Assembly (NCBI GenBank): GCA_001799195.1
Contig: MGSU01000309.1
Coordinates: 1-18,926, forward strand
Length of the DNA stretch: 18,926 nucleotides
From: Deltaproteobacteria bacterium RIFOXYA12_FULL_61_11
GTDB lineage: Bacteria > Bdellovibrionota_F > JAHFAK01 > YA12-FULL-61-11
Direction of reading: 5' to 3'
In this document: piece by piece, positions 1 to 10,370 of the stretch
How the letters are laid out: every line of letters begins with the position of its first letter
Position numbering within the stretch: the stretch's first letter is position 1
Made by a program: the position numbers and the translations under genes
The notes under the pieces: model-generated
What the model saw: the letters and a program-made list of their open reading frames with translations, nothing else
The model's database searches: none
Told to the model about the DNA's origin: nothing

Positions 1-584
1 TGATCGATGTTGCACTCATGGATAACCACTTCCATTTTTTCATTCGCATCCGCACGATAAAGGAGTTCTCCACCTTCCTACAGAGCGTGAACACCTCGTT
101 CGCCAAGCTGCTCAACCACGCCATCGGCCGGACCGGCTCTGTGGTGGAGCTGCGCGTCAAGACCCAGGTGGTGGAAGAGACGGACGAGGCCGTGCTGGGG
201 TTGCAGGCATATCTGGCCCTCAACCGCTGGCATTGCGCGAAAAGGACACGGCCGGAGCACTTCCGCTTCAGCGGGTACCGGCACTATGCCGGGCTTGAAC
301 AGGATTCCCGCTTCGACAGCTCGGAAGCCTGGCTGAGCCTGGGCGAATCGGACGAGGCCCGCGCCACGGCCTATCGCGATTTGGTTGAGGCCAAGCGCCT
401 GGAGGGGAGGGGCAACGATGAAGATCTCCTCGAACCCTCGAGGCTGTATTTCGGTTCCGCGGAGTTCAGCCTCTCCCGCACCGAACACTTGCTGACCGCG
501 GTTCGCGAGCACCACCGGGCGTTACGCCAGGCCCGGAAACTACGCCTCTCCACTTCCGACGCTGCCGCTTCGAAAAAAGACTGA
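1..584 (+). CDS. REP-associated tyrosine transposase (Y1/HUH, IS200-like fold), 5' end off the window
   Basis: The frame is already open at the left edge, so the protein is incomplete at its N-terminus, probably by about 50-60 residues judging from the family. The visible part begins IDVALMDNHFHFFIRI. MDNHFHFFI is the HUH motif (family form MpNHvHlll) that binds the catalytic metal. About 45 residues later QAYLALNRWHC aligns with the Y1 helix (family form YIxLNPVRA), which supplies the nucleophilic tyrosine, and FRFSGYRHYAG matches the usual WSSYRAY segment. Family members nick single-stranded DNA at short imperfect palindromes (REP sequences) and act as single-copy housekeeping-like transposases. 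The last residues, TSDAAASKKD, are encoded inside a repeat that recurs downstream, so the C-terminus may have been changed by repeat insertion or recombination. A REPIN-like hairpin follows the gene. Family assignment is good; activity cannot be judged without the missing N-terminus. Confidence 0.85.
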   Translation, partial: IDVALMDNHFHFFIRIRTIKEFSTFLQSVNTSFAKLLNHAIGRTGSVVELRVKTQVVEETDEAVLGLQAYLALNRWHCAKRTRPEHFRFSGYRHYAGLEQDSRFDSSEAWLSLGESDEARATAYRDLVEAKRLEGRGNDEDLLEPSRLYFGSAEFSLSRTEHLLTAVREHHRALRQARKLRLSTSDAAASKKD

Positions 585-589
585 GCTGA
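556..589 (+). repeat. Dispersed repeat, copy A (overlaps the transposase stop)
   Basis: These 34 bases match 845-878 with two differences. Both contain the core GCTTCGAAAAAAGACTGAG. Copy A lies across the 3' end of the transposase and encodes its last residues and stop codon. It lacks the GGCATCCCTGCC hairpin that precedes copy B. Confidence 0.85.
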
Positions 590-592
590 TCT

Positions 593-630
593 CTCGGCCG
601 TCTTGCGAGCGCAGCGCGAAGAGGGCCGAG
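593..630. repeat. GC-rich hairpin behind the transposase
   Basis: CTCGGCC (593-599) pairs perfectly with GGCCGAG (624-630). Inside this, CTTGCG can pair with CGCGAAG around one bulged base. It sits nine bases after the transposase stop. No T run follows on the plus strand, so it is not a classical terminator; it may be a REP-like hairpin or a weak stop for transcription. Confidence 0.4.
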
Positions 631-732
631 GTGCGCCCGCGGTTTGGAACGAGTGTTGGACCTGTCGCACGTTTACTCATTGGGTAGCAAGGTGATCGTT
701 GGCCGAACCGCTCAGCGTGGTAATTCGAATAC

Positions 733-828
733 CCGAAGTCCAATGTGGGAGGTCAGCCAGCATGGCGGGGGTCCCCCATCGGCGCCACCCCTACGAGGTT
801 ATCGTAGTAATCCCATGTTGGACTTCGG
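733..828. repeat. REPIN-like doublet: 18-bp inverted repeat with nested hairpins
   Basis: The left arm, CCGAAGTCCAATGTGGGA (733-750), and the reverse complement of 811-828, CCGAAGTCCAACATGGGA, differ at two bases. The 60-base interior carries GGGGG-T-CCCCC (767-777) and a perfect hairpin CTACGA-GGTTA-TCGTAG (791-807). Two inverted REP-type units enclosing a short spacer, about 100 nt in all, is the layout of REPINs, which are mobilised by REP-associated transposases such as the one just upstream. A second hairpin, CGGCA-TCCC-TGCCG (826-839), overlaps the right arm. The structure is seen directly; the REPIN label is inference. Confidence 0.65.
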
Positions 829-844
829 CATCCCTGCCGCCACG

Positions 845-878
845 CCGACGCTGCTGCTTCGAAAAAAGACTGAGCCGA
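845..878 (+). repeat. Dispersed repeat, copy B
   Basis: It matches copy A (556-589) at 32 of 34 bases. The similarity to copy C near 10.3 kb reaches further left, through GGCATCCCTGCCGCCAC, to about position 823. Copy B joins the right arm of the REPIN-like structure directly. Its A6 tract provides the T run of the terminator of the HD-GYP gene on the minus strand. Confidence 0.85.
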
Positions 879-7356: not shown

Positions 7357-7420
7357 GACCAGAACGGCGATTGATATACTGATGGTTGCGATCGATATTC
7401 GGAAAAATGGATTCGATGGT

Positions 7421-7436
7421 CCGAAGTCCTACATGG
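7421..7436 (+). repeat. Third copy of the REPIN arm motif
   Basis: CCGAAGTCCTACATGG matches the right arm of the 733-828 structure (read on the minus strand) at 15 of 16 bases. The GATG just before it also has a counterpart in that arm. It stands alone here, without an inverted partner, and looks like a solo or decayed unit of the same repeat family. Confidence 0.55.
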
Positions 7437-7458
7437 TCGTCCTCACAACACCATTATT

Positions 7459-8496
7459 TCATTTCTTGATTTCACCTCCGAGGTGCTTCGCCCCCTTGCG
7501 CTTGAGGTCTTTTTCCAGGTCCTCGATGGCCTTCAGGTCTTCCGCATCAGCCTCGGTGGCCTCCTGCTGGCGGCGTTTGGCGTCGAAGTCTTCGTAGCGT
7601 TCGGCGGCGATGGTTTTCATGTCCTCGTGGCTGACGGTGCCGGAGCCGTCGAGCAGCGGCTGGTCGTTGGAAGCCAGCATGCGGTCGACGCTGTTGCGCC
7701 AGTATTCGAGGCTGAGGTCCTGCCGCTGCTTGGCGCGAAGCTCGGCCTGTTCGAGGAAGATGACCACGAGGCGGTTGAGGGTATCGACCTCGTCTTCGGT
7801 CAGGTAGTTCTTGGCAACGATGATGTCGTGCTTGCGGACCCGGGACCCGCTCCAGGTGGTCAGCGCCATGTTCGGCTGGTTTGGATTGGCGCGTGTGACG
7901 ATGAGTTCGGCGGCGGTTTGGCGCGTAGCTGCGTAGAGCAGCTTGTTTTGGACCTCGGCGAAGAAGAGCTGGGTCTCCTTTTCGCGCGCAGCGTAGTCAC
8001 TGCTCAGGGCAAACAGATCGCGAACCTTCTGATAAAAACGCTTCTCCGAAGCCCGGATCTCGCGGATGCGGGCCAGGAGTTCGTCGAAATAGTCCCAGCC
8101 GCTGGGGTTCTTGAGGCGCTCGTCGTTCATGACGAAGCCTTTGATGATGTACTCGCGGAGCTGGGTGTTGGCCCAGCGGCGGAACTGTGTGCCCCGTGGG
8201 GATTTTACCCGAAATCCTACGGCAAGAATGGCCTCCAGGTTGTAGTGGGCGACATCGTAGGATTTGCGGTCGGCAGCAGTTGTCCGGAAATTCCGGACAA
8301 CTGAAGGCTGATCCAGCTCGCCTTCCTCGAAGAGGTTCTGGAGGTGCTCGCTGATCGTTTGCTTGGACCGCTCGAACAACTCACCCATGAGCGCCTGGGA
8401 CAACCAGATGGTTTCGTCAACGAGACGGCACTCAATTTGGGCCCGGCCGTCCTCGGTCTGGTAGATGAGCAGATCGCCCGCCGGCTTTTCGTTCAC
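7459..8496 (-). CDS. rhuM: RhuM family protein, coupled to hsdM
   Basis: This is a 345-residue protein of the RhuM family, first noted on Salmonella pathogenicity island 3 and common inside type I restriction-modification loci; its biochemical role is not established. The N-terminal half has the family signature: ETIWLSQALMGELFERSKQTISEHLQNLFEEGEL resembles a winged helix, followed by SVVRNFRTTAADRKSYDVAHYNLEAILAVGFRVKS and RGTQFRRWANTQLREYIIKGF, resembling Bro-N/KilA-N DNA-binding modules. The second half contains LTEDEVDTLNRLVVIFLEQAELRA and a charged, probably coiled C-terminus rich in Lys and Glu. The start is a GTG whose last bases form the hsdM stop (GTGA overlap), so translation should be coupled. 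Length is normal for the family. A perfect 27-bp DNA palindrome lies in the SVVRNFRTTA coding segment. Confidence 0.85.
   Translation of the reverse strand: MNEKPAGDLLIYQTEDGRAQIECRLVDETIWLSQALMGELFERSKQTISEHLQNLFEEGELDQPSVVRNFRTTAADRKSYDVAHYNLEAILAVGFRVKSPRGTQFRRWANTQLREYIIKGFVMNDERLKNPSGWDYFDELLARIREIRASEKRFYQKVRDLFALSSDYAAREKETQLFFAEVQNKLLYAATRQTAAELIVTRANPNQPNMALTTWSGSRVRKHDIIVAKNYLTEDEVDTLNRLVVIFLEQAELRAKQRQDLSLEYWRNSVDRMLASNDQPLLDGSGTVSHEDMKTIAAERYEDFDAKRRQQEATEADAEDLKAIEDLEKDLKRKGAKHLGGEIKK
8277..8303. repeat. Perfect 27-bp palindrome inside rhuM
   Basis: The 13-base arms CAGTTGTCCGGAA and TTCCGGACAACTG are exact reverse complements around a single central A (8290). The sequence lies within rhuM and encodes VVRNFRTT on the minus strand. 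The arms do not extend further. Confidence 0.9.
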
Positions 8497-10061: not shown

Positions 10062-10270
10062 CAGAATCTCGTCCTTCTGTTGCTATGCACGTAACAAGCC
10101 CAAACTCAAAAGCCGGACTTGGTTTACGCACACCGCTCTCCTGACTACCTTCATCGTGTTGGCAAGGGTAGCATCGGGTCGATTCGACGGCAAGCAAAGC
10201 AGTACGTATCCGGAATCCAGACGCACCAAGACCTTCCTCGCGCATCACCGAAAAGCTGTCCCGAAGGAGG

Positions 10271-10316
10271 ACTCCGTCTTTTTTCAACGCGTCGGGGTGG
10301 CGGCAGGGATGCCGAC
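10271..10316 (-). repeat. Dispersed repeat, copy C (inverted)
   Basis: Read on the minus strand this stretch contains GTCGGCATCCCTGCCGCCAC, then CCCGACGC, then GTTGAAAAAAGACGGAG. Copy B on the plus strand has the same order (TTCGGCATCCCTGCCGCCAC, GCCGACGC, then CTTCGAAAAAAGACTGAG) with about six more bases in the middle. It is a diverged member of the family, about 9.4 kb away from copy B and in the opposite orientation. Confidence 0.75.
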
Positions 10317-10322
10317 CTCCAG

Positions 10323-10345
10323 CGGCGTGCAGGATGCAAGCGCCG
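10323..10345 (-). terminator. GC-rich hairpin after the exported-protein gene, possible terminator
   Basis: CGGCG plus TGCA (10323-10331) pairs with TGCA plus CGCCG (10335-10345) across a GGA loop, with a two-base bulge. It lies about 25 bases past the stop at 10371. No T run follows on the minus strand, so termination here is a guess. Confidence 0.35.
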
Positions 10346-10370
10346 TCGTGGAATTCTTCAGTGGGATTCT

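Follow-up and report, generated by a model that had tools for sequence, protein, structure and literature searches.

The stretch of DNA analysed here (the window) comprises 18,926 nt and forms the opening 18.9 kb of a contig of 46.5 kb (MGSU01000309.1) in the 4.64-Mb draft assembly (342 contigs, 87% complete) of Deltaproteobacteria bacterium RIFOXYA12_FULL_61_11. It opens with a Y1 transposase gene whose 5′ part is cut off by the contig start at window base 1. Between the stop codon of this gene at 584 and that of a convergent HD-GYP gene on the minus strand at 889 lies a hairpin-forming unit of 96 nt (733-828), internal to the contig, which a first-pass annotation had described as a REPIN-like hairpin next to a REP-associated transposase. 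The geometry given there was borne out by a repeat search of the window: arms of 18 nt at 733-750 and 811-828 pair at 16 of 18 positions (89% complementary, i.e., two differences) around a 60-nt spacer, and the open reading frame ends 149 bases ahead of the first arm, in line with the 150 or so bases reported. Between the arms, where further hairpins had been described, the fold has the inner hairpin listed below. When folded as single-stranded DNA, the unit reached −27.3 kcal/mol (z −5.08), with 0 of 200 shuffled sequences equally stable, and a 121-nt version of the region gave a DNA-fold z of −4.1. The following features were distinguished, with genome-wide counts here and below derived from pattern and model searches:

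3-584, plus strand: RAYT/TIRYT-like Y1 (HUH) transposase gene without its 5′ part (88% DNA identity to the C141 copy; 90% amino acid identity to residues 61-253 of the C141 protein)
708-750, plus strand: complete right end of a transposase element, consisting of a bulged hairpin AATTCG..CGAA(g)TC and then the outermost tag, and reading TCCCACATTGG from outside (44.1 bits with end model R1; collinear with the C141 right end to 753)
754-801, plus strand: core fragment (GGCGGGGGTCCCCCRTCGGCGCCACCCCTACGAGGTTA) of the GTAW-TTCAGTCTTGG repeat family (its 48 nt match other copies at 92% identity)
792-808, plus strand: inner hairpin CTACGA-GGTTA-TCGTAG (folding and direct reading)
811-828, minus strand: right arm, a truncated second transposase end with the tag and the first hairpin half only (R1 13.3 bits, E 0.15, over 811-840)
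820-841, plus strand: hairpin module GGACTTCGGCATCCCTGCCGCC, overlapping the right arm and with two differences from GGAGGTCGGCATCCCTGCCGCC (module found 62 times in the genome, against 0 for the control)
845-878, plus strand: transposase 3′-end remnant (ADAAASKKD-stop), a duplicate of 556-589 (94% identity)

The product of the truncated gene retains the motifs MDNHFHFF and QAYLALNRWH. The fragment 3-584 alone had no Pfam match, and its intact C141 paralogue, which carries the HFH motif and the YLALN tyrosine motif, matched Y1_Tnp (PF01797) at 27.1 bits (cut-off 23). A Y1_Tnp domain with HUH and tyrosine motifs, as expected of a TIRYT/TIRtron transposase, was thus present, with PF01797 scores of 27-39 bits against the same cut-off. 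The RAYT family model NF047646 of NCBIfam gave the transposase 19.8 bits against a curated cut-off of 80, no helix-turn-helix family was among its Pfam matches at E 0.001, and a sequence search of the PDB returned nothing relevant. Only three distant relatives were found in a genome-wide protein scan, two of them spirochaetes.

Comparison with the intact C141 element (253-aa open reading frame) showed where the transposase element in the window ends. Window positions 1-753 are collinear with it, gap-free and at 88% identity, and both stop at 753. The C141 element begins TCCCATGTTGGACTTCG.. and finishes ..CCGAAGTCCAATGTGGGA; its left border is TCCCATGTTGGACTTCGAAGTAGCGAATCG (twice in tandem, 54 bp) and its right border AATTCGAATACCCGAAGTCCAATGTGGGA. 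The left arm of the hairpin (733-750) is therefore the outer 18 nt of the right end at 708-750. A 43-nt model of these ends (R1), built from 21 of them around the bulged hairpin GATTCG / CGAA(g)TC, retrieved 34 ends in the genome at E < 0.005, a number to be read as descriptive, since the sequences used to build the model fit it by construction; full ends scored 30-56 bits. Recurrence of the arm motif, on which the first-pass annotation had hinged its proposal of a partner family, is accordingly real (33 places at up to three mismatches, against 2 for the reversed control), and a transposase gene or remnant adjoins 22 of the 32 ends whose surroundings were fetched. Terminal inverted repeats on both sides were found in the C141 and C25 copies, and other copies show the left end only. 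The stem of the end hairpin is nearly invariant, with no covariation either way. Elsewhere in the window, a second complete end (7396-7438, 38.5 bits) stands alone with no adjoining transposase gene, immediately beyond the 3′ end of the gene at 7459-8496 (minus strand).

The whole 96-nt unit has a single full match in its own genome. All 39 other matches span only unit positions 22-70 (window 754-802). Two pieces recur, each independently of the other: the 48-nt core, and the left arm in its capacity as a transposase end. Nor do the ends pair: a genome-wide check of pairing and spacing found 0 facing doublets of transposase ends within 350 nt. A REPIN is a many-copy inverted doublet of two complete REP arms whose single strand forms a hairpin. 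The unit at 733-828 forms the hairpin (z −5.08); it is present in one copy in its own genome, its end family provides no facing doublets within 350 nt, and its arms score 44.1 bits on the left and 13.3 bits (E 0.15) on the right. What survives of the first-pass proposal is the association with a Y1 transposase whose element has inverted hairpin repeats at its termini. The idea of a mobile, non-autonomous partner family does not hold for a unit with one genome copy, whose arms elsewhere are ends of transposase elements, whose second arm lacks half its hairpin and whose core belongs to another family; occurrence of the sequence only here, found in this genome search, is the outcome that the annotation itself had named as counting against it. 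Viral contigs and plasmids held no exact match to the core and no match to 700-890, and the window had no Rfam match at the gathering threshold.

The family to which the core belongs is abundant (89 genome copies of the core pattern at up to three mismatches; reversed control 0). Its members consist of GTA(A/T)-N3-TTCAGTCTTGG arms in mirror orientation around hairpin modules, with elements of 130-245 nt. Both TTCAGTCTTGG-type arms were readable in 64 of 90 core copies, and the remaining copies had one arm, many of them ending at a contig end. Inverted doublets predominate, as 81 exact arms gave 19 facing pairs and none in other orientations, at spacings of 122-124, 174-178 and 230; the length classes lie about 53 nt apart, which is the size of a hairpin module. 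A GTAG-type tag is present outside the arms, with G at −7 in 48/59 and 44/59 elements, A at −5 in 45/59 at both ends, and A or T at −4, so that the fourth base is not G. Sequence beyond the tag is random across the 59 elements and the element border is therefore placed at the tag. Left and right arms of the same element agree above shuffled expectation at position 6 (P < 0.0005) and weakly at positions 0, 1, 12 and 13 (P about 0.01-0.03), all P values being uncorrected for 20 positions. The two arm types, TCCCATGTTGGACTTCGG and TCCCCCCAAGACTGAA, share short similarity only. No cognate RAYT gene with TTCAGTCTTGG arms was seen, in that none of these arms lies immediately beside the 12 Y1 genes found in this 87% complete genome. 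The 141-nt form of the family was absent from 40 other genomes, one of the same class. Two repeat copies, L123 (C252) and L113 (C329), carry an extra hairpin module beside the core (GCCAC/CCC in C252), and a third copy adjoins a Cobalamin riboswitch (L043 529-632; Rfam RF00174, 37.4 bits).

Within this family, only the core in the window sits between CGAAGTCC-type arms, i.e., those of transposase ends; all other readable copies have TTCAGTCTTGG-type arms. A loose pattern had scored the window copy as right-armed solely via GACTGAG in the transposase remnant, and it was reassigned by reading. The second half of the inner hairpin (802-807) lies outside the family consensus and is peculiar to the window copy.

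To the right of the core, the module at 820-841 (also given as GGCATCCCTGCCGCC, with 62 copies known) is followed by the transposase remnant. This region aligns over 61 nt at 92% to a remnant in C53 and over 55 nt at 96% to one in C192, and the same order of module and then transposase tail recurs in decayed elements of C53, C192 and C194. Modules of this kind were seen in several other settings. Modules GGCATCCCTGCCGCC and CTCTGCATCCTGCAGCAACGG stand at the joints of scrambled transposase fragments (L058 2100-2300; L075 230-800; L052 950-1600), and the modules at such joints are the same ones that build the longer REPIN-like elements. In C194, hairpin modules lie in frame within the transposase C-terminus, and window positions 10089-10348 (minus strand) hold a transposase 3′-region remnant that contains a GGAGGTCGGCATCCCTGCCGCC module and shares 76% identity with the 3′ side of the C194 copy. 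The AGGA-type loops of the modules on the minus strand were also considered as a CsrA sponge; this reading was dropped, as many loops lack GGA (CTCATGCTTGCG, GGCCCTGC) and no such family turned up in Rfam.

Taken together, 733-828 is probably a composite junction and not a replicating unit, and the doublet is best read as a junction scar that folds well by chance. Each piece was identified and recurs in its own right, and their combination is confined to this copy. A first Y1-transposase element, with inverted hairpin ends and its TCCCA tag outermost, ends at 750. Directly outside it lies the 48-nt core fragment of the unrelated, abundant REPIN-like family, and nine bases past the core comes the outer tip of another, decayed element of the first family (811-828), joined through the hairpin module to the last transposase codons (845-878). 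The pairing of the arms is explained by the fact that left and right ends of these elements are by nature inverted copies, one arm being the right end of one element and the other the left end of a different one. As to the order of events, we infer that, most simply, the transposase element inserted into or beside the REPIN-like repeat, with deletion and joining of the second element to follow. In C56, too, a transposase end directly adjoins a member of the TTCAGTCTTGG family; such a position in 2 of 31 ends is suggestive, but the pattern caught the eye before any count was made. A stable hairpin next to a transposase does not by itself point to a REPIN; for that, the doublet as a whole has to recur.

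Several observations pull against a junction. The unit is compact and symmetric, and its fold is much more stable than that of shuffled sequences (z −5.1); the TAATCCC ahead of the right arm is similar to the GCAATCCC that precedes the right arm of the abundant family, which leaves some room for a true hybrid repeat; and further copies of the unit could be missing from a draft that is 87% complete. The same strong fold and inverted arms, a cognate transposase 149 bases away and arms of the type that it would recognise at its own ends would all suit a young, low-copy REPIN-like unit, with transposase-end arms around a core captured from the abundant family and movable by the neighbouring enzyme. 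We consider this improbable: there is one copy, the right arm is without half of its hairpin, these ends form no facing doublets elsewhere, and the orientation is opposite to that of the element's own ends, the TCCCA tag being outermost at transposase elements and innermost in this doublet. That a stable hairpin lies between convergent genes (plus-strand transposase, stop 584; minus-strand HD-GYP, stop 889) might also bring to mind a bidirectional terminator or RNA hairpin, which seems quite unlikely given that every piece is of transposon or repeat origin and that a terminator scan placed no site in 733-828, the sole nearby T-tailed hairpin being at 885-871 on the minus strand. A false join in a metagenome-type draft with collapsed repeats would fit the many contigs, among the 342, that end in these repeats, and a window that starts inside a transposase; such an artefact is nevertheless very improbable for a unit within a 46.5-kb contig whose right flank (819-879) shares its order of parts, module and then transposase tail, with C192 and C53.

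The borders of the transposase elements showed a further pattern, which was spotted by eye ahead of the test. Of 31 ends, 12 have a tandem repeat of 7 nt or more that runs across the junction of element and host, and each of these repeats takes in host letters of its own. Random flanks would give 0.35 such ends, shuffled flanks 0.54, and flanks exchanged between ends 3.2 (maximum 8 in 500). The excess drops when the border is shifted, and the flank-swap control indicates that part of the signal comes from GGGATT-like sequence common to the flanks. At the C25 end, TACGTGGGGCGGTGCTC is found four times across the border; the loci concerned include L065 (2330 onward), L180, L182, L186, L190, L191, L178 and L177. 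The window's own transposase end has no border-spanning tandem repeat, and searching the literature for tandem duplications where RAYTs insert gave no relevant result. It is a tentative and rather doubtful proposal that these Y1 elements insert, or are processed after insertion, so as to leave tandem repeats of tip plus host flank, landing in or beside hairpin repeats, and that 733-828 would be a fossil of single-strand end processing rather than a chance scar. Border-spanning repeats at transposase ends are a signature that could inform how such elements join host DNA.

In IS200/IS605 elements, a subterminal hairpin is recognised by the Y1 transposase. The same recognition mechanism would be expected for the ends described here, which differ from those of IS200/IS605 in being inverted copies of each other. 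A closer likeness is to TIRtrons, RAYT-like Y1 transposases (TIRYTs) with terminal inverted repeats on either side (Di Nocera et al. 2013, PMC3733652) and placed mostly in subclass 2.1 (PMC6006769). Shared features are the Y1 HUH transposase and its size (about 250 aa), inverted repeats flanking the intact C141 and C25 copies, a moderately abundant end family (34) and the self-complementarity of some ends; the likeness rests on features other than the C-terminal helix-turn-helix domain of subclass 2.1. Many TIRs of TIRtrons have been reported to carry the motif GGGGWSAS (PMC3733652), whereas the ends here read TCCCAkGTyGGACTTCG..CGAATC. REPINs and BIMEs are inverted REP doublets (Bertels and Rainey 2011, PMC3116915), which the unit in the window resembles in its inverted arms and its hairpin near a transposase, but it is single-copy and one arm is truncated. 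The TTCAGTCTTGG family of the same genome has the REPIN anatomy, but the search turned up no transposase gene bearing its arms. It also resembles GTAG-tagged REPs (PMC3733652) in having GTAA/GTAT seven bases outside each arm, mirrored, and differs from them in the A or T in place of G as fourth base, the three variable bases between tag and arm, and elements of 130-245 nt made of hairpin modules. In this deep, little-sampled bacterial lineage, Y1 transposases with inverted hairpin ends form one family, alongside which there is a distinct, modular population of about 90 REPIN-like copies.
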